Below, in pieces: positions 14,183 to 48,440 of a DNA stretch of 64,000 nucleotides. Where the stretch lies: contig NC_089723.1 in NCBI RefSeq assembly GCF_035083965.1, forward strand, positions 37,331,193-37,395,192. Reading direction: 5' to 3'. Positions within the stretch are counted from its first letter, which is position 1. Each line of letters starts with the position of its first letter. The DNA comes from Branchiostoma lanceolatum (Eukaryota; Chordata; Leptocardii; Amphioxiformes; Branchiostomatidae). A program made the translations under genes and the position numbers. A model generated the notes under the pieces. It worked only from the letters and a program-made list of their open reading frames with translations. It made no database searches and was not told where the DNA came from.

Positions 14183-14443
14183 ACACGCAGCCCGATGATG
14201 TGAGAGTAAAAACCCGTAAAGAGTAAACGGCATGACATGACTCAGTCACCGGTTGACGGTTATCTTCAGCTTCTTGTGGGTAATCAGGTACAAGAAACTG
14301 ACCCCTATAGTGTACTTCCGGGTCATCCACAGCGCATTTCCGTTGGTAAAAACTTGTCAGAATCGCGTGGACGGACGCTGTCTGATCTATCTTTGTCCTC
14401 GGACACGCCGGTTTCTACTGTTCCAATCGTCGAGACCTTTCAG
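14183..14443 (+). promoter_or_regulatory. promoter and first exon, zinc-finger unit 1
   Basis: A conserved module found at the head of the units: GTAAAGAG, GGCATGACATGA, CTTCAGCTTCTTGTGGGTAA, an ETS-like ACTTCCGGGTCAT, a second CATTTCCG, TGTTCCAATCGTCGAGACC and a consensus donor TTTCAG|GTAAGAAG at 14443/14444. No TATA box is evident. Frames across the module differ between units because of indels, so the exon is probably 5' UTR. The donor pairs with the acceptor before the coding exon at 16308. Confidence 0.7.
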
Positions 14444-14802
14444 GTAAGAAGTGATGACGAATATCTTCGTCAGGTTGTGTAACGATGTCGAAGCTGATTA
14501 ACTGCAAGTCACGATTTTGCGACGGTTTTTAGTGTGTTGTTTCATAGAGATAAGCATGGCAGTGAGCGGGTCAAGGGTGTTGTAGGGGCTCTTTTAATTT
14601 GAGGACAAAAAGGCTCAAATGGCTCAACTTACTTTGTTTTACTGTGTTAGAAGTAACATAGAATCTATGTGGAATAGTTTTATGTATGCAAAAGTTGGCT
14701 TTTTGGCTACAAAGGCTCAAAGGAATTTAGTTACGTATGTTAGAAACCCCCAACCTGGTCCTCACATCTGGTTTCAATCATTGCCTGTTGACAGCGTGGT
14801 CT

Positions 14803-14882
14803 GGTGGACGGACGCTGTCTGATCTATCTTTGTCGACCTCGGATTCGTCGGTTTCTACTGTTCCAACCGTCAGACCTTTCAG
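14803..14882 (+). promoter_or_regulatory. duplicated first-exon 3' end and donor, unit 1
   Basis: A second copy of the last part of the first exon (GTGGACGGACGCTGTCTGAT to TTTCAG|GTAAGAAGTG) lies 440 bp downstream of the first. It lacks the upstream half of the module. It offers unit 1 an alternative donor. Confidence 0.65.
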
Positions 14883-15427
14883 GTAAGAAGTGATGACGAA
14901 TATCTCCGTCAGGTTGTGTAACGATGTCGAAACTGGTAGTCTAGAAGTCACAATTTTTGCGATGGTTTTAGTCTGTTGTTTACCTTGGCGGTGAACGGGT
15001 CAAGATAAGATTTAGAAGGTTGTTGTAGGGGCTACCCGATCTGTTTTACATTGAGAAACCAACTTCAAATCGCTCAATGTACTGTGGTTTTACTGTGTAA
15101 GAAGAGACATAGAATCTGGACGGAATGGTTTTGTGTATGCAAAAATTTACTTTTCGCTACAAAGACACAGAATTTGTGTAACGTATGCAGAAAACCCCCA
15201 ATCGGATCCTCACATCTGGTTTCAATCAGTGCCTGTTGACAGGGTGGTCTGGTGTTATTTTGTTGGGACGGTTCACTAACTGCCACAGTGATGATTTGGC
15301 ATGAAGAAAACTTCAATACGTACTGACTCGTGTACTAGTATCGTATCGATAAATGTTATATGGGACGGACCAAACAAGAATGTGCGGATGATGTTACAAT
15401 TTGGAACGTTGGCAGATCATATGTTAG
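14883..15427 (+). other. intron of unit 1 with conserved intronic block
   Basis: Holds the block TCCTCACATCTGGTTTCAAT, CAGTGCCTGTTGACAG and GGTTCACTAACTGC (15205-15285), which recurs in the introns of the other units. The block may be regulatory or just inherited by duplication. Confidence 0.6.
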
Positions 15428-15619
15428 TATAAGCTAGTTCAGGGTCGCTACTACGCATGTGCAGTGTCAAAGGTGATTTAGGCCCACGGCTTGTAGACAG
15501 TTCTCGTCTCGACATTGTCTCGATTTGCATAACAACGCCCAGACGGGTCTTGTTTACGTCGAGGGGGCCTTTACCTTTGACACTGCACATGCGTAGTAGC
15601 AACCCTGAAGTAGCTTATA
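15428..15619 (+). mobile_element. MITE family A (TIR TAAGCTAGTTC...), copy 1
   Basis: Inverted termini of about 45 bp include CTACTACGCATGTGCAGTGT on the left and its reverse complement on the right, with core TCTCGTCTCGACATTGTCTC. The edge reads GTATAAGCTA...TAGCTTATAC, compatible with a TA target. A copy at the same intronic place in unit 3 has the core reversed; a third copy is at 56152-56349. Confidence 0.85.
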
Positions 15620-15621
15620 CA

Positions 15622-15819
15622 TAGCCTCCGTTGCAGGCACTGAAGCGGCTTTTTGGGGGGGCTAAATAATACACTCTCTGCAGCCACCATAATACACTAT
15701 CAGCCATCCTGTAACTATCAGCCGCCGGCTTACAGGATGGCTGATAGTTATGGGGTGGCTGCAGAAAGTGTATTATTTAGCCCCCCAAAAAGCCGCTTCA
15801 GAGCCTGCAACGGAGGCTA
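15622..15819. mobile_element. 198-bp palindromic element with 9-bp target duplication
   Basis: Almost fully palindromic: TAGCCTCCGTTGCAGGC on the left, GCCTGCAACGGAGGCTA on the right, arms containing GGCTTTTTGGGGGGGCTAAA, GGCTGCAG and CAGCCATCCTG. It is flanked by identical GCTTATACA (15613-15621 and 15820-15828). Unit 3 carries the uninterrupted site, so insertion followed the duplication. A 9-bp duplication is typical of Mutator-like transposition (inference). Confidence 0.85.
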
Positions 15820-15861
15820 GCTTATACAATGGATGGTTGTACATTTTAGAAATAGAAGAAT

Positions 15862-16052: not shown

Positions 16053-16318
16053 CCAGGACTGTCAGATTCTTTACCTTGCTGTTATCATATAACCTCCAAT
16101 CAGATCTTCTAGTGCCTCTGTCCTCGACTGCATAAAGATTTACCAGCGAAAGATCTAATAATTGATATTTGTCATCATGGCCGTCACATGTCTCCAAGCA
16201 GATGCAATGGTGTCCGTTGTATCATTCCCTGTGATGAAAACTCTCAATGGATTGAATTTCATTTTTAATTTGGTCATTTACTCTCTTTTCTTTTCACTAT
16301 TATAACAGAAGTGTCTCC

Positions 16319-17404
16319 ATGGCTACTACAAAGAGCTGCCACAGTGACGTCACCAATAGTAGAGTAGGAGGGATTGCCAACACTCTGCCATGGTGTGAGG
16401 AGTGCAGCAAGCAGTTCAGTACACCAGGTAATCTGACGATACACTTGCAGACTCACTCAGGGGAGAAACCCTACAAGTGTGAGGAGTGCAGCAGGCAGTT
16501 CAGTGCACCAAGTAAACTGAAGAGACACTTGCGGACTCACACAGGGGAGAAACCCTACAGGTGTGAGGAGTGCTGCAAGCTGTTCAGTACAACATGTCAT
16601 CTGAAGACACACATGCGGACTCACACAGGGGAGAAGCCCTACAGGTGTGAGAAGTGCAGCAGGCAGTTCAGTAGGCTGGGTGTTCTGAAGAAACACATGC
16701 GGACTCACACAGGTGAGAAGCCCTACACGTGTGAGGAGTGCAGCAGGCAGTTTAGTGAGCTGGGTAGTCTGAAGAGACACATGCGGACTCACACAGGGGA
16801 GAAGCCCTACAAGTGTGAGGATTGTGGCAAGCAGTTTAATGAGCTGGGTGTTCTGAAGAAACACATGCGGACTCACACAGGTGAGAAGCCCTACACGTGT
16901 GAGGAGTGCAGCAGGCAGTTTAGTGAGCTGGGTAGTCTGAAAAAACACATGCAGACTCACAAAGGTGAGAAACCATATAAGTGTGAGGAGTGCAGCAGGC
17001 AGTTCAGTGAGCGGAGTAATCTGAAGAAACACATGCGGACCCACACAGGGGAGAAGCCCTACAAGTGTGAGGAGTGCAGCAGGCAGTTCAGTGAGCTGGG
17101 TAGTCTGAAAAAACACATGCGGACTCACACAAGAGAGAAGCCCTACAATTGTGGGCAGTGCAGCAGGCAGTTCAGTGACCTGGGTAATCTGAAAAAACAC
17201 ATGCGGACTCACACAGGTGAGAAGCCCTACAATTGTGGGGAGTGCAGCAGGCAGTTCAGTGACCTGGGTAATCTGAAGAGACACATGCGGACTCACACAA
17301 GTGAGAAACCCTACAAGTGTGAGGAGTGCAGCAAGCAGTTCAGTGAGCTCGGTAAACTAAAGAGACACATGCGGACTCACAGGGGAGAAGGAGAAGTATT
17401 TTAG
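16319..17404 (+). CDS. C2H2 zinc-finger protein, 12 fingers (cluster unit 1)
   Basis: A single coding exon of 361 residues after an acceptor at 16308 (TATAACAG|AAG). The start is the ATG in GTCTCCATGGCT, shared in position by all units. The leader of 25 residues ([15 protein letters not shown]...) has no known domain. Twelve fingers follow from residue 26 at a 28-residue pitch: Cys-x2-Cys-x12-His-x3-His with TGEKPY-type linkers. Fingers 10 and 11 read CGQC and CGEC in place of CEEC. No KRAB, SCAN, ZAD or BTB domain. Inference: a nuclear sequence-specific DNA-binding protein; targets unknown. Its intron and leader are closest to unit 3. The poly(A) signal AATAAA is at 17752. Confidence 0.95.
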   Translation: MATTKSCHSDVTNSRVGGIANTLPWCEECSKQFSTPGNLTIHLQTHSGEKPYKCEECSRQFSAPSKLKRHLRTHTGEKPYRCEECCKLFSTTCHLKTHMRTHTGEKPYRCEKCSRQFSRLGVLKKHMRTHTGEKPYTCEECSRQFSELGSLKRHMRTHTGEKPYKCEDCGKQFNELGVLKKHMRTHTGEKPYTCEECSRQFSELGSLKKHMQTHKGEKPYKCEECSRQFSERSNLKKHMRTHTGEKPYKCEECSRQFSELGSLKKHMRTHTREKPYNCGQCSRQFSDLGNLKKHMRTHTGEKPYNCGECSRQFSDLGNLKRHMRTHTSEKPYKCEECSKQFSELGKLKRHMRTHRGEGEVF

Positions 17405-18264
17405 GCCGAACTGATGAAATATATGGAAAAGGCATTGTAGAAAAAATTGTATATGGTATTACTATTAGTCTGACATATTACTATTAGTCTGACGACAAAC
17501 CTCTTTTCTTTTTTTTTGTTTTCTATTTTATTTGTCACATTATTATACTGTGTCTTTGGTTCCCCTTGTTTATTTCGTGTATAATATCGCTGTTATTTTG
17601 TTTATAGCTTTGTTTCAGTAATGTCCATTTGTTACGTTCCATGTTTTGAAGTTAGATGCACTAACTGAGTTCTATTATGGTAGATGTAGAGATGATAGGC
17701 CCAAGGTTATGTTCATTTAGTTCATTTGTTTATGTTATTTAGTTCAGTATCAATAAAGTTTGTCGGCATAACACTGGTGGAGATCAACTTTTTCATTCAA
17801 GACGAGTGTACTGTTGCTCACAACGCCTAGATATTAACACGTTTTGGGGATAACCTTGGTACATGATACAAAACATAGTACAATTTTACACATGATTCCT
17901 AAGGGTCCCAGATATGACATTTTTTTTACTGTCAATTCCTTAAAAGACATTTAAAAAATCAAGTGAAAATAATTAGTTCTCAGTCATAATGGAACCAGCT
18001 TCCCTCCAAACAGTGGTTTCGGTCAGGGTCTATTTTGTTCTTTTCTCTTTTTGCAGCCTTTTCTACGATTCTGTGTTTCTCTAGTAGTGGCCGCGATTTA
18101 GAGGGAATTAATTGAACAAATTGGGGCCACAACCCACCAACTCGTATACCATCCAGTCTCGGTAGCATTTCAACACGTTTTCCGATAGGTTACGGGCATT
18201 TTTATTGCAATATGAATCATTGAGTGGCATGACCATGTTTTACATAACTTAATTGATCATAAAT
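17405..18264 (+). other. 3' region, poly(A) signal and spacer of unit 1
   Basis: The 3' UTR carries the recurring motif as TAGATGTAGAGATGATAGG (17681-17699) and ends at AATAAA 17752-17757. After it comes the conserved intergenic block with TTTACAACGCC-type words as CACAACGCCTAGATATTAAC, then unit-specific spacer. Confidence 0.8.
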
Positions 18265-18543
18265 GCGACACGCAAGTTGATCAAGTGATGAGAGAAAAAC
18301 CTCGTAAATATCAAGATCAAAGTCTACACGGAATGATATGATCTGGTTAGCGGTAGACGGTCATCTTCAGCTTCTTGTGGGTAATCAGGTACAAGAAACT
18401 GACCTCGCAGTGAACTTCCGGGTCATCTACAGCGCATTTCCGTTCTTCCAAGCTTGCCAGAATCGCGTGGACGGACGCTCCCTGATCTATCTCTGTCCTC
18501 GGATACGCCGGTTTCTACTGTTCCAATCGTCGAGACCTTTCAG
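18265..18543 (+). promoter_or_regulatory. promoter and first exon, zinc-finger unit 2
   Basis: Same module as unit 1, ending TTTCAG|GTAAGAAG at 18543/18544. Unusually, an ATG at 18338 opens a frame that runs to the donor and, after splicing to 19455, would continue in frame into the zinc-finger ATG, adding 72 residues (68 full codons, one split codon and Asn-Asp-Leu). In other units this frame is broken, so a 5' UTR with an upstream ORF is the simpler reading. Confidence 0.7.
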
Positions 18544-19454
18544 GTAAGAAGAGATGACGAATATCATTGTCAGGTTGTGTAACGATGTCGAAGCTGATAG
18601 ACTACAAGTCGTGATTTTGCGGTGGTTTTAGTGTGTCGCTTTGTCTGGGTCAAAATAAGATTTAGAAGGGTGTGGTATGGTCTACCGGGTATCTTTTACG
18701 TTGAGAAAATTCAAATTGCTCAATTTGATATGTTTTATCGTATTGTAAGTAACATCCAGAATCTATACAGAATAGTGTTAGTTTGCGAAATTTGACGTTT
18801 TGGCTCTAAAGACACACAGGACTTGAGTTACGTATGTTAGAAACCCCCAATCGGATCCTCACATCTGTTTTCAATCAGTGCCTGCATGTTGACAGCGGGA
18901 TCTGGTGTTTTTCATGGGGGCGGGTCACTACTGCTACAGGGGTGGTTTGCCTGCATACTTCGCACATACAGGCTACCGACAAATGTAACTTATCAGTACA
19001 AACTGTAATATGGGAGCAATGTCGGGGCAATAAGATAGAAGAACATTTTACGAAAAGGGAAGATAATGATTTTATAGCTGTGAGGGTTAAATATTGGATA
19101 TTATGGACGGGTGTACCTACTAGAAATGAATACATGCGCACATGTGTGTGTGTGTGTGTCACTGTGTGTGTGTTTTATGTGTTTGCGTGCTTGTCTTTGT
19201 GTATGTATGAGTTTGTGTACTGGGACTGCCATCTGAATCTTTATCTAAGTAACATACAAATCACAATTAATAGGAGGGTGTAGGTTTGACAAAGTGTCGA
19301 AGCTTAGTTGATTATTTCACATGTAGTATCATGTTTCATTACCCAGGATCACTCCAAGCAGATTCTGTGGTGTCTGTTATAACATTGTCCCATGCTGCAA
19401 ACTTCTCATCAACAATTTTCATTGATTATATTTTCCGCTTCTCTATGGTTACAG
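18544..19454 (+). other. intron of unit 2
   Basis: 911 bases from donor GTAAGAAG to acceptor GGTTACAG. Contains the conserved block TCCTCACATCTG, GTTGACAGCG and GGTCACTACTGC (18855-18945) and a short TG tract at 19143-19180. It lacks MITE family A. Confidence 0.7.
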
Positions 19455-19464
19455 AAACGACTTG

Positions 19465-20388
19465 ATGGCAACAACAAAGAGTGATGACGTTAGCAGTGGT
19501 TCAGTTGAGGGGTTTGCCAACAGCCTTCATAGGTGTGAGGAGTGCAGCAAGCAGTTTAGTACACCAGGTAGTCTGAAGAGACACATGCGTACGCACACAG
19601 GGGAAAAGCCCTACAGGTGTGAAGAGTGCAGCAAGCAGTTCAGTACACCAAGTAATCTGAAGATACACATGCGCACCCACACAGGGGAGAAACCCTACAT
19701 GTGTGAGGAGTGTAGCAGACAGTTCAGTGAGCTAGGTCATCTGAAGAGACACATGCGAACTCACACAGGAGAGAAACCCTACAAATGTGAGGAGTGCAGC
19801 AGGCAGTTCAGTCTGCTGTGTAATTTAAAGAAACACATGCAGACTCACACAGGTGAGAAACCCTACAGGTGTGAGGAGTGCAGCAAGCAGTTCATCCAGC
19901 TGGATCATGTAAAGAAACACATGCGGACTCACACAGGTGAGAAACCCTACAAGTGTGACAAATGCAACAGTCAGTTCAGTGAGCTGGGTGATCTGAAGAG
20001 ACACATGCGGACTCACACCGGGGAGAAGCCATACAAGTGTGAGGAGTGCAGCAGGCAGTTCAGTACACCAGGTAGTCTGAAGAGACACATGCGGACTCAC
20101 ACAGGTGAGAAACCCTACATGTGTGAGGAGTGCAGCAGGCAGTTCAGTCAGCTTGGTCATCTGAAGAGTCACATGCGAACTCACACAGGAGAGAAGCCCT
20201 ACAGGTGTGAGGAGTGCAGCAGGCAGTTCAGTAAGCTTGATGATCTGAGGAAACACATGCGCACTCACACGGGTGAGAAACCCTACAGATGTGAGGAGTG
20301 CAGCAAGCAGTTCAGTGAGCTGAGTAATCTGAAGAGACACATGCGAACTCATACAGCCCCGTATGCTGCCTGGACCTTCTCTGGCTAG
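19465..20388 (+). CDS. C2H2 zinc-finger protein, 10 fingers, array interrupted (cluster unit 2)
   Basis: Acceptor at 19454 (TTACAG|AAACGACTTG), ATG at 19465. The leader is 23 residues (MATTKSDDVSSGSVEG...), the unit 4/6 type. Ten canonical 28-residue fingers follow from residue 24. The frame then enters a 206-bp insert at 20357 and stops at 20388, giving 307 residues. The array continues beyond the insert to 20842 with a half finger, one good finger and one whose first Cys is Tyr (KYEEC). GT at 20361 and AG at 20565 would splice out the insert in frame (codon CC|T), bypassing the stop but losing the Cys half of one finger. Whether that occurs is unknown. Read without splicing it is a C-terminally truncated protein. 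Confidence 0.9.
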   Translation: MATTKSDDVSSGSVEGFANSLHRCEECSKQFSTPGSLKRHMRTHTGEKPYRCEECSKQFSTPSNLKIHMRTHTGEKPYMCEECSRQFSELGHLKRHMRTHTGEKPYKCEECSRQFSLLCNLKKHMQTHTGEKPYRCEECSKQFIQLDHVKKHMRTHTGEKPYKCDKCNSQFSELGDLKRHMRTHTGEKPYKCEECSRQFSTPGSLKRHMRTHTGEKPYMCEECSRQFSQLGHLKSHMRTHTGEKPYRCEECSRQFSKLDDLRKHMRTHTGEKPYRCEECSKQFSELSNLKRHMRTHTAPYAAWTFSG

Positions 20389-20562
20389 CATATACGATTT
20401 TCGGCGCCCCGTGTAGATCTGCTTGGAGATTACGTCCCTGTTCAAATGTTCGCGCGAAATAATCTGCATAGAGCACTCGCGCTATTGTTATTCCCATTCA
20501 TTATCTCCCCTGCGCTCTATTGTCATTCCCTGGCCCCCTATTTATTTGTTGTCATTTTACAC
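20357..20562 (+). mobile_element. 206-bp insert splitting the unit 2 finger array
   Basis: The host finger sequence stops after ACACAG (20356) and resumes at CAGTACACC (20563). About 40 host bases (linker plus the Cys pair) are missing. The distal part, from TGTTCAAATGTT through ACTCGCGCTATTGTTATT to TTATCTCCCCTGCGCTCTAT, has a dispersed copy at 31963-32095. No terminal repeats are obvious. Confidence 0.75.
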
Positions 20563-20842
20563 CAGTACACCAGGTAATCTGAAGAAGCACATGCGGACTC
20601 ACACAGGAAAGAAACCCTACACGTGCGAGGAGTGCAGCAAGCAGTTTAGTGAGCTTGGTGATCTGAAGAAACACATGCGGACTCACACAGGGGAGAAACC
20701 GTACAAGTATGAGGAGTGCAGCAGGCAGTTCAGTCAGCTGGGTGGTTTGAAGACACACATACGAACTCACACAGGGGAGAAACCCTACAAGTGTGACTAT
20801 GGACTAATACAAGCCAAACAGGCATACATTAACGTTGAATGA
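20563..20842 (+). pseudogene. stranded C-terminal fingers of unit 2
   Basis: In frame from the half finger STPGNLKKH: a complete finger ([14 protein letters not shown]), a finger with Cys replaced by Tyr, and a started finger (CDYGLIQ) that ends at TGA 20840. Reached only if the insert is spliced or read through. The final finger is truncated anyway, so decay had begun. Confidence 0.8.
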
Positions 20843-22106
20843 AAACGACAGAATCCAAAAATCTCTCGGTTGTTTTTTAAGTATATGGGTTTAGTTTGGA
20901 GACAACCTTCGTTTGCTTTTTTTAAGATTTGTTGCCCATTATCATACTATGTTGACGAGACTTGTTGTCCTGTTTATTCACTGTGTGGTTGCACCACTGT
21001 CATTTTGTTTGATTCATTTCTTATTGTTTGAGATCTATGGTCTATTTTTAAAAAGTTCAAACTACTAGTAGTAGAAGTTCTTTAACGATGGATGTTACAC
21101 TCAGGGTTATGTTTATTTAAGCCATTTCTGTTAAATTTGTTGGACGTTAATAGTTTAGGTTTAATTGTAGCATTCTAGAACTACAAGTAGCATTATGTTA
21201 TCGTAGCTGAAGATATAGTAGGTATAAGCTTACAAACTGATTTTGATGTTTATACATGTTGAGTTTTTGTAGATTTCTTATACGTACTTGACTACTTGTT
21301 AATTCAGATTCATGGAAATAGAAGAGTTTTTTGTCCTTACGCTTTATCTTTTCCTTCTATTATAGTGCTTGTATCATTTATTTTCCGCATAACCTTTTCA
21401 ATTATGCTTATTGTTCCCTACTTGTTGAGTTCTATTATGATAGCTGTAGAGATGATAGGTAGTACTAAGAAGGGTATGTTTATTCAAGTCCCTTCCTTTA
21501 ACATTTGTTTATGTCACTTATTTTGTTCACAGTTCGGTTACAATAAAGTTGTGGTGATAACACGAAGGGAATCAGATTATTTACTAGAGACGGGTTTATT
21601 TTTATTTACAACGCGGAGATATCAACACGTTTTGGGCAGATAACCTTGGTGCACCATGCAACAGAAAATTACACCAATAGTTAGCATGACTACTACGGGT
21701 CGCTGTATGTGTCATATTCTTACTGTCACGTACTAAGTCATTCAGAGAATCAAATGAAATTACAAGTTGCCTTCCTTGTTTTAGTCATAATGCAATAGTG
21801 TACAAGGTGCACTGTTCTCCAAGCAGCGATTTCAGTCAGGGGTTAATTATTTCGCCTTATTCAGATCCTATAATTCCTTAGTTAGGAGTGGCGTCTTTAA
21901 GAGGGAAATCGAAAGAAATTGCACCTAAAAGGGCAGTACCGAAGGAATAGACAAAATGCACATAAAAGAGCAGTACCGAAAGAAAAAGAAGAAACACTTC
22001 AATCGTATGCTTTCGACTCGAGTGATAGGATACGGGTGTTTGATCAAAATATATATACAGTACATGACATTACATAATATTTACATCTCTAGATATGGTA
22101 TAAATG
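20843..22106 (+). other. 3' region, poly(A) signal and spacer of unit 2
   Basis: The 3' motif is exact at 21441-21459 (TAGCTGTAGAGATGATAGG). The companion word TAGCTGAAGATATAGTAGG lies near 21206. AATAAA at 21542-21547, then the post-poly(A) block with TTTACAACGC and ATCAACACGTTTTGGG, then spacer. Confidence 0.8.
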
Positions 22107-22408
22107 CTACACGCAACTTGATCCGGTGATAAGAAGAGTGAAAACTCGTAAAGAGTTCACGGCATGACATGATCTGGTCACCGGTAGACGGTCATCTTCA
22201 GATGAGAAGGGTCTGTACTAATCGCCTTCTTGTGGACAACCAGGTACAGGAAACTGACCCCAGTATTGTACTTCCGGGTCATGCATTGCGCACTTCCGTT
22301 CGTGAAAGCTTGTGGTGTCAGAATCGCATGGACGGACGCTCTGTGATCTATCTTCCTTTGTCCTGGGATACGCCGGTTTCTATTGTTCCAATCGTCGAGA
22401 CCTTTCAG
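22107..22408 (+). promoter_or_regulatory. promoter and first exon, zinc-finger unit 3
   Basis: Shared module, with a short insertion (GATGAGAAGGGTCTGTACT region) after CATCTTCA and the donor TTTCAG|GTAAGAAG at 22408/22409. ETS-like ACTTCCGGGTCAT and CACTTCCG are kept. The upstream frame here ends out of register with the coding exon. Confidence 0.7.
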
Positions 22409-23430
22409 GTAAGAAGTGGTGACGACTATCTTTATCAAATTGTGCAACGATGTCGAAGCTGGAAGACACAAGTCGCGGTTTTGCGGTGGTTTTAGCGTTT
22501 TGTTTTGTCAAGATAAGACTTAGAAGGGTGTTTCTCAAGTCTTTCACGTTGGAAAACCGACACTAACATGACTAAAGTGACGCGCGAGCGGCGAGGGACA
22601 TCATCATGTCGCCGCCGCCGCCGCGCCCGCCATCTTGGATGTTTACGCATGTTGCAAATCGCTCGTGGGCGCCTTTTACGGAGTTTGTGTGAGTAAATAA
22701 GCTGACTGAAATGAAATTTTGACAAGAAAATTGACTGTATGGGACTGTATTTTGAAAAACGCTGCCCAAGACCGACTGGAAGTGTATCGCGATCGAAGTG
22801 ATGACTCGTCTGGAAACGGCAAGTACTTCACCGGCTTAGAAGTTAGAGTTTAGCTGCCGGAAAATACTTTTAAAGTAATATCTAAATGAATCTGAATAAT
22901 ACGTGATAAAATAACTAGTCATTTAGGGTTTAAATGTCGTTAAATGGGAGGACGAAATGTCCATGATGAGGACGAAAGGACCAGGGGACGAACGGGTCAG
23001 GGGGCGAAAAGACCTGTTACCGGGTGTTGTAGGGTCTACCGGATCAGTTTGAATTTGAGAAACAAACTTCAAATCGCTCAATGTACTGTGGTTTTACTGT
23101 ATAAGAAGAGACATAAAATCTGGACGGAATGGTTTTGTGTATGCAACAGTTAATTTTTGGCTACAAAGACACAAAGAATTTGTGTAACGTATGCAGAAAA
23201 CCCCTAATCGGATCCTCACATCTGGTTTCAATCAGCGTCTGCTGACTGGGTGGTCTGGTGTTGTTTTGTTAGGGGCGGTTCACTAACTGCTGCAGTGATG
23301 CTTTGTTGTGAAGAAAACTTCAACACTTACTGACTGGTGTATCTTATCAGTAAATATTATGTGGGACGGACCAAAAACAAGAATGTTCGGATAATGTTAC
23401 AATTTGGAACGTTGGCAGACCATATGTTTG
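22409..23430 (+). other. intron of unit 3, with GC-rich insert
   Basis: The usual intron, interrupted around 22560-22980 by sequence absent from the sister units. The insert holds (GCC)n, CGCCCGCCATCTTGGATG (a YY1-type motif) and a GTGAGT donor-like site. The conserved block TCCTCACATCTGG...GGTTCACTAACTGC returns at 23213-23295. Confidence 0.6.
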
Positions 23431-23596
23431 TATAAGCTAGTTCGGGGGTGCTACCACGAATGTGCAGTGTCATTGGGGACCCATCTGGGCGTTGTTATGC
23501 AAATCGAGACAAAGTCGAGACGAGAACTGTCTACAAGCTGTGAGCCTTGACCTTTGACACTGCACATGCGTAGTAGCAACCCTGAACTACCTTATA
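23431..23596 (-). mobile_element. MITE family A, copy 2, core inverted
   Basis: Same termini and same intronic site as the copy in unit 1, but the interior reads CTGGGCGTTGTTATGCAAAT and GACGAGAACTGTCTACAAG, the reverse complement of unit 1's core. It is also somewhat shorter. Confidence 0.85.
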
Positions 23597-23631
23597 CAAT
23601 AGATGGTTGTATGCTTTAGAAATGAATGAAT

Positions 23632-23800: not shown

Positions 23801-24075
23801 CCAGGTCTGTCAGATTCTTTACCTTGCTGTTATCATCTAACCTCCAATCAGATCTTCTAGTGCCTCTGTCCTCGACTGCATAAAGATTTACCAGTGAAAG
23901 ATCTGATAATTGATATTTGTCATTATGGCAGTCACATGTCTCCAAGCAGATGCAATGGTGTCCGTTGTATCATTCCCTGTGATGAAAACTTTCAATGGAT
24001 TCAAATCATTCAATTTCATTTTTAATTTGGTCATTTACTCTATTTTCTTTTCACTATTATAACAGAAGTGTCTCC

Positions 24076-25242: not shown

Positions 25243-25345
25243 GGAAACACAAGCGGACTCACACAAGGAAGTCGTACCAGTGTCTCAAACAGTTCAGTAG
25301 GCTGTATACTCTGAAGACGAACACGAAAGAACGAATGACGAGGAT
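25243..25345 (+). pseudogene. out-of-frame finger remnant after unit 3
   Basis: GAGCTGGGTAGTCTGAGGAA, CACAAGCGGACTCACACAAG and CAGTTCAGTAGGCTGTATAC are the continuing finger array in a shifted frame after the 43-nt deletion. A degenerate last finger reads KQFSRLYTLKTNTK. Confidence 0.75.
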
Positions 25346-28186: not shown

Positions 28187-28196
28187 AAGCGACTTG

Positions 28197-30430: not shown

Positions 30431-30439
30431 GCAACAAAA

Positions 30440-33402: not shown

Positions 33403-33595
33403 GCATTTCTAGTTTGTGCCAGGATTGTCATCAGATTCTTTAAAATGCTGTTTATATTATTATAGCCAATTCTCGAACTAGATATACAGTATTTATTATA
33501 TGACTCCAAGCAGATGTAATGGATGCCATTATAACATCAGAATATTCTGATTTTATTCTATCATTCTCACTTCCTAGCCTTACAGAAGCGACTTG

Positions 33596-36991: not shown

Positions 36992-37001
36992 AAGCGACTT
37001 G

Positions 37002-38420: not shown

Positions 38421-38736
38421 GGAGTGCAGCAGACGGTTTAGTGAGCTCGGTAGTCTGAAGACTCACATGCGGATTCACAGAGGAGGGAAACCCTACATGT
38501 GTAAGGAGTGCAGCAAACAGTTCAGTCAGATTTGTAGTCTGAAGAAACACATGCAGACTCACACTGGAGAGAAACCCTACAAGTGTGAGGAGTGCAGCAA
38601 GCAGTTCAGTACACTGCGTAATCTGAAGATTCACATGCGGACTCACACAGGGGAAAAACCCTACGGTTGTGAAGAGTGCGACAGACAGTTCATTCAGCGG
38701 GGTAACCTGAAGACTCACATGAAAACACACTTGTGA
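38406..38736 (+). pseudogene. four frame-shifted C-terminal fingers of unit 6
   Basis: Reading one base back from the stop, the array continues with [42 protein letters not shown] and CEECDRQFIQRGNL, then MKTHL and TGA. All zinc ligands are intact, so the frameshift looks young or artefactual. Confidence 0.85.
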
Positions 38737-40236
38737 TAAATTCTTTAGAAACAATGACCTAGAATCAGACGCTGTCATCATAATTTCGCCGCAAGTCACT
38801 TGTTTGTTGATGAAGCTCAAGTCACTTCCCCATGATACTGTGTTACATTGTGGCAATATTTGAAGGTAATGCATATTTGATAAATACAGTACATTGTATA
38901 TTACACTCAGTCCTTCGATGCTCTTTCGATTAGCTTTAAAGTATAATGTATCAGTCTAAAGGTAAAGTCGCTTGTTTTGTTATCATCTAGTCTTCTGTTT
39001 TATCAGTCATAACTAAGAGTAGTAAGATGATGAGGCTTCTTTTCTTTAGGCCACATTGTTTATTCCTTACACATGTTATTTTACATTTTCTTTGTTTATT
39101 TCTTATACTTTTTCTTATTTGTAGCTTTGTTAATATCATTTTTGATTGGTACATCCTATATTTAGAGGTCAGACCTACCGAGGTCTAATATGTTCGTTGT
39201 ATAGATGATAGGCATGTAAGATTATGTTAATTCAGGTCAATTCTGTTACATTACTTGATGTTATTCATTGTTCTACAGTTCAGGTTCATTTGTAGCATTT
39301 TAGAGCTACCAGTGGCATTTTGTTATTGTAGATGTATATATAGTAGGTACAAGCTTACAAACGGATTTTTCTTGTTTATTCACACAGAATATCTGTAGTT
39401 TTCTTATATGTTCTTGTTAAGTAAAAATAAAAGTTTTGTTATAACACTATCTATTCCCCGTATCATAGTATCACCGTTATTTTACTACTAACTTTATTTT
39501 GATTGTTACAACTTACTGCTAGTTGACTTCTGTTCAGGAGCTGTAGAGATGATAGGCGCAGGGTTATGTTTATTTAGGTTACTTCTGATGCGTTTCTTTT
39601 AAAATTACAGTTATTGTTGCATATGTTTATGTTATTTAGTTTGTTACAGTTCACTTGCAATAAAGTTTTGTGCTGAAATACTGGCAACTCACTTGTTGAT
39701 TAGAAACGCTTTACCTTTACTATTGTCTACATTAACGCGTTTTTGGGAAATGACCTTAGTACATCGTGGAAAAGGGAAAATTACAATAATCCTACACATG
39801 ATCGCTGAGGGTAGCGGATACGTCAGTCACTAAAATCAACTGAAAAATTTATAACAAACAAAAAATTAAAATAATTTGCCATCCTTGTTTGAGCCATAAC
39901 GGAATGGTACTCAAGGCGACCTACTCTCCAAGCTAAGGTTTACCTTGATGATATTTCAAGCTGCGGCCAGTGCGGCTGTGTTGTTGCTTTTGTTAGGCGT
40001 TTCTATATTTACCTATAGCTAGAAGTGTAGTTGCTGCGTTTTAAAGGGATGACATTTTTAAAGATCGCTGTCAGTACTAAACATAGAGTCGTAGAAAAGG
40101 CCGCCGAAAAAGCAAAAATGAAAAAAATAACCCCGTCCGAAACTTCTGCTTGGAGAGCAAAGGCGCACTGTTTTTTTCAATGCGGGAGCACGAGAAGATT
40201 TCTACTCTTGATAAACATTTTTTGGTTACTGTAAAA
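38737..40236 (+). other. 3' region, poly(A) signal and spacer of unit 6
   Basis: Motif copies near 39194-39212 (diverged) and 39538-39556. AATAAA at 39659-39664. Bases 39323-39959 are the second copy of the 636-bp duplicate. Spacer follows up to the unit 7 promoter. Confidence 0.8.
39323..39959 (+). repeat. 636-bp direct duplicate, copy 2
   Basis: Near-identical to 25871-26506. Here the sequence continues normally (GCTGCGGCCAG...) to a promoter module, showing what the unit 3/4 junction has lost. Confidence 0.9.
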
Positions 40237-40527
40237 TTGCGACATGCAACTTGATCCTATGATAAGAGAGTGAAAGCTCGTTAAGACTACACGGCTCAAA
40301 CTCAAACGGCTTGACATGATCCGGTCACCGGTAGACGGTCATCTTCAGCTTCTTGTGGGTAATCAGGTACAAGAAACTGACCCCGGCAGTGTACATCCGG
40401 GTCATCCAAGTGCACTTCCGTTCGTGAAAGTTTGTCAGAATCGCGAGGGCGGATGCTCTCTGATTACCTTTCAAGTTTGTCCTCGGATACGTTGATTTCT
40501 ACTGTTCCAATCGTCGAGACCTTTCAG
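40237..40527 (+). promoter_or_regulatory. promoter and first exon, zinc-finger unit 7
   Basis: Shared module: GTGAAAGCTCGTTAAGA, GGCTTGACATGATCCGGTCA, CTTCAGCTTCTTGTGGGTAA, CCGGGTCATCC, CACTTCCGTTCGTGAAAG, TGTTCCAATCGTCGAGACC and the donor TTTCAG|GTAAGAAG at 40527/40528. The upstream frame contains an early stop, so exon 1 is non-coding here. The intron to 45439 is 4.9 kb because of a LINE. Confidence 0.7.
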
Positions 40528-40974
40528 GTAAGAAGTGATGAAGGATATTTATGTCAGGCTGTGTAAAGATGCCGAAGTTGTTAGACTACAAGTCGCTTTT
40601 TGCGATGGTTTTAGTGCGTTGTTTTTTTCGGGGCGGTGAATGGGTCAAGATGAGACGTAGAAGGGTGTTGTAGGGATAACCGGATCTCTTTTACTTTGAG
40701 AATAAGCTTCAAATTGCTCACTTACCTGCGTTTTACTGTGTTCTAAGTAACATAGAATCTAGACGGAATAGTTGTTTGTCTACAAATCTTAGCCTTTTGG
40801 CTCCAGGAACACAACGAAATTGAGTGACGTATGTTCGAAACCCCCATTCGAATCCTCACGTCTGGTGTCCATCACTGCCTGTTGACAGCGGGGTCGATGG
40901 CGGGGTTCGGTGTTTTTGTTGGGGGAGGTTCACTAACTACTACAGTGGTGATTTGCCTGTATACTATCACATAT

Positions 40975-43900
40975 ATTTCTTTATTTCTTTATTTCTTTAT
41001 TTGAATTTACCACATGCAAAAACAAGTGGAAGGGAGGACAAAACAGGTGTATCAACACCTTTACAAGTTGTCCTCCCAAACCTGAAATGATAATAGAAAA
41101 CAATACGAAACCAAGTCAAACAATAAACATTAGACATCAAAAGTCAGTGGACATGAATATACAATTCGGTAACAATACGCAGAATTGATTATATACAAAA
41201 TTATCAAATATCATTATATACAGAGTAAAAAGCTAATTATAATACTAATGTAGCCTTAAGGCAGTGCATGAGGCACACCCACAAGATGTGGACCAAGAGC
41301 AGGGGACGTCGATATTGAACTGGGTGTCAAATCTCACAAACGTGGCTCTCACAAGCGATCGCTTGAATGACAAGATGCTAGACTTTTCAGTGGCTTGAAC
41401 CCCAATATTGCGGAGGACAGGACTCAGCTGATTCCAGATGGTGACCAGCCTTGGTATGTAAGAAGAGCTGAAGGCTGATGTCCTTACTCTAATGGGGGTA
41501 ATCATGTGAGATCTGAGATATCTGGAGGGTCTGGAAGGGAAGGATACATACTTGTGAACAATTGGTTTTGACTTGATAAACACCATGACGTCGCACACTT
41601 CGCGCCTGTGCGTAAGAGGCAACAGACCAAGGGTGGAGAGACGTTCCTTGTAGGTCAGGGTGTTCGAGTGGGCTCCTAGAATGAATTTAGTCGCCCGCCG
41701 TTGCACCCCTTCTACAAGGGACATGAGTTTGCGGGACTGAGGGGACCACAAAGGTGAGCAGTATTCTAAGATGCTTCTCACCAGTGTGGTGTACAGTGCC
41801 TTGCGTACATCAGTGCTAGAGTTGAACCCGATTGTTCTTTTGATGAAACCAGTCATAGAATTGGCCCTGGCTACCATCTTTAAGATTTGACTGTTCCACT
41901 GAAGGTCCGACTGGACAATGACCCCCAGGTCAGGCATACTGTCTACAGATGTTATTGTAGTACCAGACATGTGATAAGAGTACACAATAGGACTCTTAGA
42001 GCGAGTTAAACGGATAAGTTTACACTTGGAAGGATGAAAGGTCATCTTCCAACTACGACTCCAGTTGTACATAGCAGTGATGTCATTTTGCAGCTTAACA
42101 CAGTCATTTAGCTTGCTGACTTCCCTAAAACATTTAGAGTCGTCAGCGAAGAGTGCTACAGTAGATTGAGTTGCTGCACAGGGCAAGTCGTTGATAAACA
42201 GAAGGAAGAGAAAGGGCCCAAGAATGGAGCCCTGTGGAACACCTGATGTCACCGGGAGCCATTTGGACTGGCAACCTTCCACTACCACACGCTGACGACG
42301 ATCGGTTAGGTAGGAGGTAAACCACGCCAGGAGGTTACCACCGAAACCAAACATCTGCAGTTTGTGGATTAGCAAAGTGTGGGAAACGGAATCAAACGCT
42401 TTCGCGAAGTCCAGGAATAACATATCTACCTGCCCCCCCTTGTCGAGTATGGATCCTGCTTGATGGTAGGTTTCTACTAGTTGAGTTGTAGTAGAACGGC
42501 CGGCAATAAACCCGTGTTGGAATTCGTGAAGCGACCCTCTCAAAATTGGAATCAACTGATTGTACATACAGCGTTCCATCAACTTGCTTACCAGGGATAA
42601 CAAAGATACTGGTCTATAATTGGCCACATTCTCCTTGTCACCCTTCTTATGCACTGGTAGTACGTTTGCATCCTTCCATCTACTCGGTACACAACCAGCG
42701 AATAGTGATCTATTGAACAGCAAGGTCAAGGAAGGAGCAAGAGTCTTGGCACAGCCCTTAAGAACGTGAGCAGAGATGTTATCCGGACCCACAGCCTTAC
42801 TAGTGTTGAGATTAACTAACACATTTTCCACGGATTCTACAGCAAGTAGCAAATTACACAATCTTTCATCAACTATCACGTCGATGTCGGGCTTGATAAC
42901 ATTAGGGTCAGGTGCAGAAAAGGTGGAGAAAAAGTAGTCATTGAACAAATTGGCCTTATCGGGTGCAGACTGAACGACCGTGCCGTTGAGATGAATGTCA
43001 GTCGGAAGAGACCTGGATTTTGACTTTGCTCGTACAAAAGCCCAGAATCTCTTCGGCGACTCCTGTAAAGTGGAAGAGAGGCTAACAAGATATTTGTTAT
43101 ACTTAGCTGATAACAAGTTCTTCAGTTTGTTTCTTAGTTTACGGAGCTTCTCCCAGTGAGAGGGGGAGTCGGAACGCTTCGCCCTTTTCCACGCTGTCCG
43201 CTTCTTGTTCTGCAAGTTGCGTACCTCGCCGTCGATCCAAGGAGGTGATGTTGATACCTTGAGCTTCCGACTGGGCACGAACATGTCAACAGCCGACTGA
43301 ACGGCTGAAGACCATGCCTCCCAGGCAGAGTCAATGTCATGGTGGTGAGTAACTGACTCTGATAGCCCCAGTGACTCTAGGTGAGCACTGAGACCATGCC
43401 AGTCGGCTCGTGTAAAGTTGTACACTTTACGAGGAAGCTCCTGCCTAGTTTGGATACGACAGCGGAGAGAGAACTCGAGAACAGTGTGGTCGGTGTCAAA
43501 GTCAGCGGGAAGTTCCCTGATCGTAGAGAACCTCTCAGGGATGTCCGTAAACACAAGATCTAACAGGTTGTGAGTGGAATTTGAGGGAACATGATTGATT
43601 TGTTTTAAAAAGTAGTTATTAATCATGTTGCAAAAGTCGGCTTCCCTACCCTCGTTTAACACTACACAATTAGCCCAGTCGATTCGAGGCAGATTGAAGT
43701 CCCCGAGGACACAGCACATGTTATACTCTTTGTTCACGCTCTCTAAAGTCGAGCCCAGGTTGTGCGTAAAAGCTGACAAGTTACCAGAGGGAGGTCTGTA
43801 GCAAAGAATAACAGCAATTTTGCCCATAGCTGGAGGACGGATTTCACATACAAGAATCTCATCCTGAGGCTCCAAGTCAAGTCTTCGACTACTACATAAT

Positions 43901-44790
43901 GACGATTTAACAGCAAGTAGAATCCCCCCACCAGACTTATTATTGTGAGTAACATGACGATCCTTGCGATGCGTCACAAATTCAGGGGGAATAACCTCTA
44001 AATCATGCACATCAGAAGTCAACCAAGTCTCAGTGATTGCGAGAAGATCCGGAGCATTAAGGTGTATCAGGTTGGTGAGCTGTACCAACTTGTTCCTACT
44101 CTGGTTAACAGATTTCACACTCCTAGCATTGAGATATATAGCATTAAGAAAATTGGATGACATCATTAAAGTGAAGAACAACAGGAAGCACACATGTGTT
44201 AACATACTTCCAATGATCTAATTGACTGTATGAAATAGCTCATCCAGTGGTAGCACTGCCTAGTAATTAATTTGCATATCTATAACAGTAAGGAATTTCA
44301 ATCTAATCAGGCTAACAGCTGCATACAAATTTACATAACAATTGGATTAAAAATAAGCTTAACAGTAAAAACACAATACGTAAGCTAACAGTAAAGTCTT
44401 CCAAAGACTAGAATACATGTGTACCGGTATCTGTACAGATCCTGCACTAAACACCACACAAATCAATTCAACACAAAGTTGCCTTATAGCTTACACATCG
44501 CTTAAAAGTGAATAACAATACACAGTAGGTGAGGAGGTCAGAGGGTCGATAATGTAGGGCGCCCTCCCCTATAAGGAGGTTTGCTGAAACATGAAGATAA
44601 AATTTCACATTAGGGCTAAAAATTTTCAAATAACTAATATCAAGATAGATTCTCTACAATTACAACTGTCCTCTGCTTTGTGAATACTGTGCAACTTTAA
44701 CGGGATTAAGGTGATATTTACTGGATTTAAAAGAAAATACCTGAAGAACTAATATTTAGGTGTTGCCCTGGTCGATGACCTCTGACCTAT
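40975..44790 (-). mobile_element. CR1-like non-LTR retrotransposon (LINE)
   Basis: Inserted antisense in the unit 7 intron. The 3' end (low coordinates) is an octamer microsatellite, TTCTTTAT repeated three to four times at 40977-41001, the hallmark of CR1/L2-group tails. The protein ORF is intact. The 5' part (44206-44790) has no ORF1, so the copy is 5'-truncated or single-ORF. Unit 2 supplies the empty site (CACATACAGGCTACCGACAA), which places the right end near 44790. Clade call by motif appearance only. Confidence 0.8.
41245..44205 (-). CDS. LINE endonuclease-reverse transcriptase (ORF2-type), intact
   Basis: 986 residues, uninterrupted. N-terminal apurinic-type endonuclease: YLNARSV near residue 20, ITETWL near 58, YRPPSGN, LGDFNL near 167, DTDHTVLEF. 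Central reverse transcriptase: NYRPVSLLSLVSKLMER near 529, HGFIAGRSTTTQL, FLDFAKAFDSVSH, SGVPQGSILGPFLFLLFIND, the catalytic FADDS near 685 and the thumb-region motif HPSKCKLIRL. The C-terminal region (YCSPLWSPQ, VQRRATKFI, RLSTLGLLPLTHRR) is usual for this group. All active-site residues are present, so the copy is recent. Role: target-primed reverse transcription of its own RNA. The Leu-rich N-terminus (MLTHVCFLLFF) may be upstream sequence; MMSSNFLNAI is another possible start. Confidence 0.93.
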   Translation of the reverse strand: MLTHVCFLLFFTLMMSSNFLNAIYLNARSVKSVNQSRNKLVQLTNLIHLNAPDLLAITETWLTSDVHDLEVIPPEFVTHRKDRHVTHNNKSGGGILLAVKSSLCSSRRLDLEPQDEILVCEIRPPAMGKIAVILCYRPPSGNLSAFTHNLGSTLESVNKEYNMCCVLGDFNLPRIDWANCVVLNEGREADFCNMINNYFLKQINHVPSNSTHNLLDLVFTDIPERFSTIRELPADFDTDHTVLEFSLRCRIQTRQELPRKVYNFTRADWHGLSAHLESLGLSESVTHHHDIDSAWEAWSSAVQSAVDMFVPSRKLKVSTSPPWIDGEVRNLQNKKRTAWKRAKRSDSPSHWEKLRKLRNKLKNLLSAKYNKYLVSLSSTLQESPKRFWAFVRAKSKSRSLPTDIHLNGTVVQSAPDKANLFNDYFFSTFSAPDPNVIKPDIDVIVDERLCNLLLAVESVENVLVNLNTSKAVGPDNISAHVLKGCAKTLAPSLTLLFNRSLFAGCVPSRWKDANVLPVHKKGDKENVANYRPVSLLSLVSKLMERCMYNQLIPILRGSLHEFQHGFIAGRSTTTQLVETYHQAGSILDKGGQVDMLFLDFAKAFDSVSHTLLIHKLQMFGFGGNLLAWFTSYLTDRRQRVVVEGCQSKWLPVTSGVPQGSILGPFLFLLFINDLPCAATQSTVALFADDSKCFREVSKLNDCVKLQNDITAMYNWSRSWKMTFHPSKCKLIRLTRSKSPIVYSYHMSGTTITSVDSMPDLGVIVQSDLQWNSQILKMVARANSMTGFIKRTIGFNSSTDVRKALYTTLVRSILEYCSPLWSPQSRKLMSLVEGVQRRATKFILGAHSNTLTYKERLSTLGLLPLTHRREVCDVMVFIKSKPIVHKYVSFPSRPSRYLRSHMITPIRVRTSAFSSSYIPRLVTIWNQLSPVLRNIGVQATEKSSILSFKRSLVRATFVRFDTQFNIDVPCSWSTSCGCASCTALRLH

Positions 44791-45439: not shown

Positions 45440-45449
45440 AAGTGACTTT

Positions 45450-46697
45450 ATGGCTGCAGCAGAGAACTGCCACGTTGATGTTACCAAGAGAGGGATGCGC
45501 AACACTCTTCAAAGGTGTGAGGAATGTAGCAAGCAGTTCAGTACACCAGGTAGTCTGAAGAGACACATGCGAACTCACACAGGGGAGAAACCCTACAGAT
45601 GTGAGGAGTGCAGCAAGCAGTTCAGAACACAAAGTTGTCTGAATAGACATATGCGGACTCACACAGGGGAGAAACCTTACGGGTGTGAGGAGTGCAGCAG
45701 GCAGTTCAGTCGGCTAGGAGATCTGAAGAGCCACATGCGGACTCACACAGGGGAGAAACCCTACAGATGTGAGGAGTGCAGCAAGCAGTTCAGAACACAA
45801 AGTCATCTGAATAGACATATGCGGACTCACACAGGGGAGAAACCATACACGTGTGAGGAGTGCAGCAGGCAGTTCAGTGAGCTAGGACATCTGAAGAGAC
45901 ACATGCGAACTCACACAGGGGAGAAACCCTACAGGTGTGAGGAATGCAGCAGGCAGTTCAGTTATCTTCTTAATTTGAAAACTCACATTCGGATTCACAC
46001 AGGGGAAAAACCCTACATGTGTGAGAAGTGCAGCAGGCAGTTCAGTAAAGTTGATGATCTGAAGAGACACATGCGAACTCACACTGGGGAGAAACCCTAC
46101 AAGTGTGAAGAGTGCAGCAGGCAGTTCAGTCAGCTGGGTAGTCTGAAGAGACACATGCGGGCTCACACAGATGATAAACCATTTATGTGTGAGAAGTGCA
46201 GCAGGCAGTTCAGTCAGCTTGGTCATCTAAAGACTCACGTGCGAACTCACACAGGGGAGAAACCCTACAGATGTGAGGAGTGCGGCAGACAGTTCAGTCA
46301 GCTGTGTGAGGTGAAGAAACACATGCGGACTCACACGGGTGAGAAACCCTTTATGTGTGAGAAGTGCAATAGGCATTTCAGTCAGCTTGACCATCTAAAG
46401 ACTCACTTGCGGACTCACACAGGAGAGAAACCCTACAGGTGTGAGGAGTGCAGCAAGCAGTTCAGTGCGCTGGTCAGTCTGAAGAGGCACATGCGGACCC
46501 ACACAGGAGAGAAACCCTATACGTGTGAGGAATGCAGTAGGCAGTTCAGTCAGCTTGGTCATCTGAAAAGCCACATGCGGACTCACACCAAGGAGAAACC
46601 CTATCGGTGTGAGGAGTGCAACAAGCAGTTCAGTAATCTGCGTAAGCTTAAGAGACACATGCGCACTCACAGGGGAGAAACCTCAATGGTTCGATGA
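45450..46697 (+). CDS. C2H2 zinc-finger protein, 14 fingers (cluster unit 7)
   Basis: Acceptor at 45439, ATG at 45450, 415 residues. The leader is the most diverged (MAAAENCHVDVTKRGMRNTL...), 22 residues. Fourteen fingers. Fingers 2 and 4 share RTQSxLNRH. Fingers 7, 9 and 11 use CEKC. One linker is TDDKPF, another TKEKPY. It ends THRGETSMVR, matching the unit 5 ending, so the stop position is ancestral. No break in the array; with promoter, donor, acceptor, TG tract and poly(A) signal (AATAAA 48323) it is the most complete unit despite the antisense LINE in its intron. Confidence 0.95.
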   Translation: MAAAENCHVDVTKRGMRNTLQRCEECSKQFSTPGSLKRHMRTHTGEKPYRCEECSKQFRTQSCLNRHMRTHTGEKPYGCEECSRQFSRLGDLKSHMRTHTGEKPYRCEECSKQFRTQSHLNRHMRTHTGEKPYTCEECSRQFSELGHLKRHMRTHTGEKPYRCEECSRQFSYLLNLKTHIRIHTGEKPYMCEKCSRQFSKVDDLKRHMRTHTGEKPYKCEECSRQFSQLGSLKRHMRAHTDDKPFMCEKCSRQFSQLGHLKTHVRTHTGEKPYRCEECGRQFSQLCEVKKHMRTHTGEKPFMCEKCNRHFSQLDHLKTHLRTHTGEKPYRCEECSKQFSALVSLKRHMRTHTGEKPYTCEECSRQFSQLGHLKSHMRTHTKEKPYRCEECNKQFSNLRKLKRHMRTHRGETSMVR

Positions 46698-48440
46698 GTG
46701 CAGCAGACAGTTAAGTATCTGGGGAGAAAAATGAGAACACCAGTTTGAGAAAATTTTTACAAAGAAGGAGCAGTATTTTAGGCCGAACTGATGGAAGATT
46801 TGTAAAGGGCAAAGTAGGTAAAAAATTGTTTTTAAGTTTATGGTCTGACGACAAACCTCTTTTCCTTTGTTTTCTATTTCATTTGTCACATTAAAATACT
46901 ATGTGGACAGGACTGCTGTCTTTAGGTCCCATTGTTCTTTGTATGGTAGCATCACTGTTATTTTGCTTTGTTACAGTAATGTTCAATTGTTACGGTCAAT
47001 GTTTTGAGGTTAGACCCACTAACTGAGTTCTATTATCATCAATGGTAGCTGTAGAGATGATAGACACAGTGCTATGTTCATTTAGGTCCCTTCTGTTACA
47101 TTTGTTGATGTTATTTATTCTATTACGGTTCAGGTTTAAGTGTTCGTTTTTTATCTACCAGTAGCATTTTGTTATTGTAGCTGAAGGTAGAGTCCATTCC
47201 AAGTCACCGTGAGGGTTGTTATTGTCATAATTTAGAACTATTTTCAAGTTATTGTTATTATTTGTGTAAGAGATTTGATACTTTTGAAATATTTTGAATG
47301 TGATTTCAACTTTCTAAATATTTCTTAAGTTTTCTAAAACCTTAGAAATAATCATGATGTAGAATATAATATTTACAATGGTTTCTAAATAATGGTAACA
47401 GCATTCTATCATTATTTACAATTTTTTACAATTTCTTACCATTTTCTACCATTATATGTAACATCTCTATAAATAGGCCAGAGGGCTGGGAAGAAAGCAA
47501 TTCACACATCCTTGCGAAGTTTAGGGAAGAATGCTTTCCACAAAGGACCGAGAGGTGTCCTGTAGTGAAGTCTAAAGATGTACAAAGGCAGACAGAAGGG
47601 CCAGATTAGCATCTACTTTTATGGGGGCAATCACCATTCTACCATTGTTAACTATTTTCTACCATTTCTTGTTAATATTTCTAAAAGTGAAATAATCACA
47701 TAGATGTTTAGAAATTATTACAAATAAAGAGGTTTTTGTGCAGTTACTTTAAAAATATTTCTAAATTATCTAATTGAATTCGAATAAATTCATATTTTTG
47801 TATTTGATCTTCTAGAAAAATCTAGAACTATTGTCAGTCAGATATTCTTTTATTAGAAATTTTTCAAAATGATTACAAATATTATCATAAAACCCTCGCG
47901 GTGACTCGGAATGGACTCTATTGTAGGCGGAAGCTTGCAAAGTGATTTTGATGTTTATACACGTAGAGCATTTCTAGGTTTCTTATATGTGCTTGTTTCT
48001 TTTCGCCTTTAACAAAATACACCAAAAAAATTTTTCATAATATTTTCAATCATCTTACCTGTTACTACGTGCCTACTAGTTTAGTTCTATTTTCACTGTT
48101 ATTTTGCTTATTGCTTTGTTGTGATTATTTTCAAATGTTACGGTCAATGTTTAGAGTTTAGATCTACTAACTGAGTTCTATTATAGTAGTAACTTGGCAC
48201 TATCTCCCTACTAGTTGAGTTCTATTATGGTAGCTGTAGAGAGGATAGGCACAGGGTTATGTTTCTTTAGATCCCCTCTGTAGCATTTGTTAATTTCATT
48301 AATTCTGTTACAGTTTACGTACAATAAAATGGTTTGTTATAACATTAAAGGAAATCAGCGTACTGCATTTATTTGAGACGGTTATATTTTTGTTTCTAAC
48401 GCCTAGATATAAACACGTTTTTGGCAGATAACTTCGGGAC
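46698..48440 (+). other. 3' region and poly(A) signal of unit 7
   Basis: Motif copies at 47046-47064 and 48231-48249; AATAAA at 48323-48328; post-poly(A) block to 48430. The 3' region is split by a TA-flanked element (47190-47918). Confidence 0.8.
47190..47918. mobile_element. TA-flanked MITE, about 729 bp
   Basis: Ends GAGTCCATTCCAAGTCACCG and CGGTGACTCGGAATGGACTC are inverted repeats, continuing with GAGGGTT/AACCCTC. TA lies on both sides. Paralogous 3' regions show the joined site (TAGCTGAAGATA then TAGTAGG). AT-rich interior with repeated TTTCTACCATT words, no coding capacity. Tc1/mariner-type insertion by TSD (inference). Confidence 0.88.

Follow-up and report, generated by a model that had tools for sequence, protein, structure and literature searches.

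Positions 14183–48440 of a 64,000-nucleotide stretch of Branchiostoma lanceolatum DNA (contig NC_089723.1; the whole stretch is called the window below, and all coordinates are its own) hold seven C2H2 zinc-finger units lying head to tail on the + strand, as located by a six-frame motif scan. The cluster is probably a family of poly-C2H2 zinc-finger genes duplicated locally in tandem, with a putative repressive DNA-binding role. The encoded proteins are very likely DNA-binding regulators, and repression of transposons or repeats as their main role, suggested by analogy with known families, would have roughly an even chance of being correct. The coding exons are as follows.

16309–17404, + strand: unit 1 coding exon, 12 fingers behind a leader that begins MATTKS
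19455–20388, + strand: unit 2 coding exon, 10 fingers
24066–25242, + strand: unit 3 coding exon, 13 fingers
28187–28883, + strand: unit 4 coding exon, 7 fingers
33586–34438, + strand: unit 5 coding exon, one broken finger followed by 8 intact fingers
36992–38420, + strand: unit 6 coding exon, 16 in-frame fingers
45440–46697, + strand: unit 7 coding exon, 14 fingers behind a leader that begins MAAAEN

The finger pitch is exactly 28 residues throughout all seven arrays. Motif-matching fingers in frame number 12, 10, 13, 7, 8, 16 and 14 in units 1 to 7, giving 80, and the first finger of unit 5, which is broken and has lost the pattern, brings the in-frame total to 81. With 7–16 fingers, all seven units exceed the threshold of at least five fingers per gene applied in the survey of Wells et al. 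(2023; PMC10547256). Counted in all six frames, the motif occurs 87 times in the window; this figure includes the four fingers that lie out of frame behind unit 6 and three matches that are stray or relic. In 50 first-order Markov sequences generated from the dinucleotide frequencies of the window it occurred 0.5 times on average and never more than twice. The zinc ligands are intact in 80 of the 81 in-frame fingers; the search pattern itself demands three of these ligands, and it is the 28-residue spacing that leaves only the first finger of unit 5 unmatched inside the arrays. The phenylalanine, which the pattern does not demand, is kept in all 84 scored fingers, and each residue of the TGEKPY linker in 66–76 of 76. 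The fingers are preceded by a leader of 22–25 residues (ATG at 16319, 19465, 24076, 28197, 33596, 37002 and 45450 in units 1 to 7) that begins with MATTKS in five units, MATTMS in one and MAAAEN in one. Homology between units covers a 5' module, the coding exon and a 3' module, so that whole units were duplicated locally in tandem, the 5' modules of units 4 and 5 being truncated. An earlier note on this DNA had described seven + strand units with a strict 28-residue pitch, 81 in-frame fingers and a 22–25-residue leader usually starting MATTKS; all of this was borne out (the 81 corresponding to 80 intact fingers and the broken one), and the bounds it drew at 14183 and 48440 are consistent with where the first 5' and the last 3' modules lie.

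The residues expected to contact DNA diversify while the fold and linker columns are constrained, as established by counting. The proportions of nonsynonymous and synonymous differences per site (pN and pS) were compared over 84 fingers, comprising the 80 in-frame fingers and the four out-of-frame fingers after unit 6, with the linkers of last fingers excluded. At the contact columns −1, 2, 3 and 6, pN/pS was 1.38 versus 0.23 at the other columns, with pS at 0.31 and 0.39, respectively. Three zinc-ligand columns being fixed by the search pattern, the non-contact ratio was also obtained without the six core columns (0.31), and the 80 in-frame fingers by themselves gave a contact ratio of 1.45. 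When only comparisons between units were retained, the ratios were again 1.38 and 0.23, with bootstrap ranges over units of 1.21–1.82 and 0.18–0.27, and the within-unit contact ratio lay at 1.32–2.21 in six units. Among all 7315 sets of four columns drawn from the non-core columns, the observed set counted in, 4 reached the pN of the contact columns and 58 reached their ratio. The 84 fingers carry 64 distinct contact quadruplets.

The anatomy of the units leads to a predicted gene model in which one intron separates a non-coding first exon from a single coding exon for leader and fingers, with a 3' untranslated region behind it. As in the units here, KRAB-ZNF (KRAB zinc-finger) genes carry their fingers on a single exon. 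A conserved splice acceptor 10 bases upstream of the leader ATG begins the coding exon in all seven units, and the ATG is directly followed by GC in each. A donor, CAG/GTAAG, is conserved in the upstream modules of units 1, 2, 3, 6 and 7 (5/7), twice in unit 1 via a local duplication; all six + strand occurrences of this octamer in the window fall within 5' modules, about one being expected by chance, and the minus strand has two. Five of the seven 5' modules have a second conserved donor-like site, TCAG/GTAC (donor after 14287, 18388, 30419, 35881 and 40366). In units 1, 2, 6 and 7 it lies about 155–165 bases 5' of the first donor; the fifth copy is in unit 5. These sites may mark alternative first exons. 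Unit 4 has neither conserved donor. The modules flanking the coding exons are placed as follows.

14183–15640, + strand: unit 1 5' module, partly duplicated, which likely holds the promoter and non-coding exon 1; main donors after 14443 and 14882, alternative donor after 14287
17405–17757, + strand: unit 1 3' region, polyadenylation (polyA) signal 17752
18259–18968, + strand: unit 2 5' module, with main donor after 18543 and alternative donor after 18388
20389–21547, + strand: unit 2 3' region, polyA signal 21542
22060–23610, + strand: unit 3 5' module, split in two; main donor after 22408
25243–26211, + strand: unit 3 3' region, polyA signal 26206
26480–26930, + strand: unit 4 5' module, truncated; both conserved donors missing
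28884–29972, + strand: unit 4 3' region, polyA signal 29967
30260–30450, + strand: what remains of the unit 5 5' module; main donor lost, alternative donor after 30419
34439–35340, + strand: unit 5 3' region, polyA signal 35335
35830–36600, + strand: unit 6 5' module, with main donor after 36044 and alternative donor after 35881
38740–39664, + strand: unit 6 3' region, polyA signal 39659
40220–41010, + strand: unit 7 5' module, with main donor after 40527 and alternative donor after 40366
46698–48328, + strand: unit 7 3' region, containing an insertion; polyA signal 48323

Splicing via the main donor places an in-frame stop 10–24 codons 5' of the leader ATG in 3/5 units (3, 6 and 7) and leaves units 1 and 2 open, with an in-frame ATG at −156 (one of the unit 1 duplicates) and −216 (unit 2); the counterpart of the latter in unit 7 runs into a stop. 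Via the alternative donor, a stop falls 14–19 codons before the leader ATG with no ATG between in all five units that have the site (1, 2, 5, 6 and 7). Because of these in-frame stops the upstream exon looks non-coding, and a hidden upstream effector exon was rejected on account of the stops reached via the two donors, a check that covered the six units with at least one of them (all but unit 4). The possibility of a hidden downstream effector exon, raised because some last fingers end in HRGE, was likewise rejected: no conserved donor was seen there, and each of the seven units continues into an AT-rich 3' module that contains stops and a conserved AATAAA. The AATAAA hexamer alone is common, and its weight as a polyA signal comes from its aligned position. 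Read up to the aligned AATAAA, the frames stay open for at most 36–141 codons, and the two longest such stretches (141 codons after unit 2 and 104 after unit 6) cover the relic or out-of-frame fingers. From the exon anatomy, the 5' stops and the 3' module, the predicted protein therefore consists of leader and fingers only.

Domain searches agree with this. Among the matches listed for the seven proteins (25 of 48 families), Pfam returned no effector domain, only zinc-finger models together with TBPIP_C, Spt46, C1_1 and DUF7838, which fall on the fingers; in the one unit whose matches were listed in full, no single stretch passed by itself for any of these four. Four of the seven leaders were scanned alone and gave nothing above cut-off, a match of PF11131 to the leader of unit 7 (E 0.11) being treated as chance. 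No family exceeded cut-off in three frames of the + strand spacers (eight segments within 12001–45383, plus 46698–48442 and 20389–20570), a scan that set aside 20571–20899 and 38421–38759, which hold fingers, and that covered the minus strand through its open reading frames only; two matches to PF10058 (E 0.0056 and 0.002), below the Pfam cut-off and situated in a 98.7% identical repeat after units 3 and 6, were also treated as chance. A KRAB exon upstream of the fingers, the mark of a KRAB-ZNF gene, was not found by Pfam in the scanned + strand spacers. The earlier assertion that no known effector domain accompanies the fingers is thus supported by the searches of the seven proteins, of the leaders (four alone) and of these spacers. 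Neither Rfam at its gathering threshold nor ARAGORN returned any match.

The arrays also bear marks of shuffling, copying and decay. Fingers have been copied within arrays (fingers 6–7 with fingers 10–11 of unit 3, and fingers 4–5 with fingers 12–13 of unit 6). Units 1 and 3 are 95–97% identical around the leader and first fingers, 79–88% beyond, and 75–84% further upstream, a gradient suggestive of conversion or unequal exchange. Behind units 3 and 6, a tract of 639 bases (25871–26509 and 39324–39962) is 98.7% identical, the preceding sequence being far more diverged, and looks like a recent gene conversion or copying event. Relic or out-of-frame fingers, which the earlier note had not mentioned, lie at three places.

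20564–20797, + strand: relic fingers behind unit 2 in another frame, one with a zinc-ligand Cys changed to Tyr
25224–25316, + strand: out-of-frame relic finger sequence after unit 3
38416–38739, + strand: four out-of-frame fingers behind unit 6, the array apparently cut by a frameshift

Each protein probably reads a distinct long DNA site, and the most likely use, by analogy, would be the repression of repeats, transposons or other fast-changing targets. The proteins would block access to the DNA, or would recruit a partner via leader or fingers. Several observations weigh against such a reading. The classical contacts −1, 3 and 6 alone give a pN/pS of only 1.16 (84 fingers) or 1.24 (80 fingers), and the within-unit contact ratio of unit 7 is only 0.98; these ratios, like all those given above, are counts rather than likelihood tests, and gene conversion can distort them. 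Among the seven finger pairs at least 97% identical, the contacts are identical in five and differ at one residue in two. The leader is weakly constrained (pN/pS 0.51 over 22–25 codons) and therefore offers little for a recruitment domain, and units 4 and 5 have lost much of their 5' module. Lastly, the finger domain alone of amphioxus zfp665, a different protein, was reported to cause no detectable axial defect in zebrafish (PMC7806126), a warning against presuming that bare fingers suffice. That the cluster represents a new effector-less invertebrate zinc-finger family silencing transposons with the leader as a recruitment motif, or with the fingers alone, and without KRAB/TRIM28, is unlikely.

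The strongest alternative, possible though on the less probable side, is that these are transcription factors of development or the nervous system, specific to one lineage, which diversified to regulate host genes rather than for genome defence. Contact diversification is predicted by a silencing or genome-defence role, but host gene regulation could yield the same, and this alternative expects the same anatomy besides. In its favour are the assignment of cephalopod C2H2 paralogues from one expansion to different expression modules, as described in PMC12513265, and the statement in the text of Wells et al. (PMC10547256) that Drosophila zinc-finger genes display no transposable element preference. 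It is weakened, not decisively, by the failure to find a recognised activation or repression domain and by the combination of contact diversification with array shuffling, a pattern linked to recurrent target change. It is quite unlikely that the units are mostly decaying, non-functional relics of a formerly active cluster: the four out-of-frame fingers after unit 6, the relics after units 2 and 3, the broken first finger of unit 5 and the missing donors (the main exon 1 donor in units 4 and 5, both donors in unit 4) would be expected of relics, but an open frame of 7–16 fingers, the splice acceptor and the polyA signal are each kept in 7/7 units, and the non-contact pN/pS stands at 0.23 (0.31 without the core columns).

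Structural comparison bears on a further alternative, in which the fingers would act on satellite or centromere chromatin or on recombination hotspots in the manner of PRDM9, not on repeats or promoters. The solved relatives that score best for unit 2 are finger arrays from zinc finger protein 568, Aart and PRDM9, with CTCF next; ZNF568 is a KRAB-ZNF and Aart a designed protein. PRDM9 arrays also diversify at their contact residues. The likeness notwithstanding, this alternative is highly improbable, since no SET or KRAB coding exon was found by the splice-frame check and the scan of the + strand spacers, and there are seven genes here, not one. An AlphaFold2 model of unit 2 built on the seven-row alignment reached a mean predicted local distance difference test score of 42.5 and was not used.

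As to the surroundings of the cluster, the intron of unit 7 contains a retrotransposon frame of the long interspersed nuclear element type (41245–44205, minus strand), uninterrupted over 986 residues and including endonuclease and reverse transcriptase. A repeat of about 170–200 bases recurs at 15428–15621, 23429–23597 and 56152–56349 with matches in both orientations, like a small palindromic transposon, and an inverted pair of about 411 bases (5667–6075 and 9475–9885) is 97.8% identical, each copy with 42-base tandem units. Other tandem repeats occupy 4883–5113 (21-base unit), 51394–51828 (219), 52200–52725 (80) and 54395–54761 (20). The flanking exons on the + strand encode a neurotransmitter-gated channel transmembrane region (1684–2112) and sulfatase pieces (59308–59856 and 62269–62766, the second below the Pfam cut-off). 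A viral-contig scan gave nine pattern matches, none of which was confirmed.

Among the matches listed in a search of the literature on amphioxus zinc-finger expansions, the family was not described in titles or abstract openings, and the words amphioxus, Branchiostoma and lancelet are absent from the main text of Wells et al. (PMC10547256). These authors reported that zinc-finger and retroelement copy numbers are correlated over 828 genomes and that knockdown of the FiNZ-ZNFs of cyprinid fish derepresses young transposable elements; their Discussion leaves open how FiNZ-ZNFs repress and points to dozens more uncharacterised animal zinc-finger families, while binding-site prediction was deemed insufficiently accurate for single genes. 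FiNZ-ZNFs, as described there, resemble the present genes in their tandem-repeat C2H2 arrays, the grouping of copies, signs of diversifying selection on the fingers and a short N-terminal sequence without known domain (28 residues there versus 22–25 here). They differ in that FiNZ lies on its own upstream exon, whereas the leader here is within the finger exon in 7/7 units; in that FiNZ is glutamate-rich and the leader here has none or one; and in that expression and transposable element repression were shown for FiNZ-ZNFs, the cluster here being known from sequence alone. The cluster is set apart from the FiNZ-ZNFs by its anatomy, having no separate upstream FiNZ exon.

The KRAB-ZNF (KZFP) clusters of tetrapods, as treated by Emerson and Thomas (2009; PMC2604467), share the clustering of genes, the TGEKPY linkers and the diversifying contacts, and differ in the KRAB exon: Pfam gave none in the scanned spacers here, and in 6/7 units at least one of the splice forms tested has an in-frame stop ahead of the leader. 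The ZAD-ZNF genes of flies likewise form a large C2H2 family in one lineage (PMC10547256), but Pfam found no ZAD domain in the units. In Table 2 of Emerson and Thomas, the fly and mosquito poly-zinc-finger expansions listed, which may or may not be ZAD genes, show no significant positive selection, and in vertebrate expansions they found selection concentrated at −1, 3 and 6; the pattern here leans towards the vertebrate one, more weakly at −1, 3 and 6 alone. If transposon silencing proves to be the role of the cluster, its seven genes would make a compact system for testing whether bare finger arrays can nucleate repression in the absence of KRAB-like domains. As it stands, the cluster fits the tandem zinc-finger expansions surveyed by Wells et al. 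(2023; PMC10547256), as one more such family with its anatomy read from sequence.

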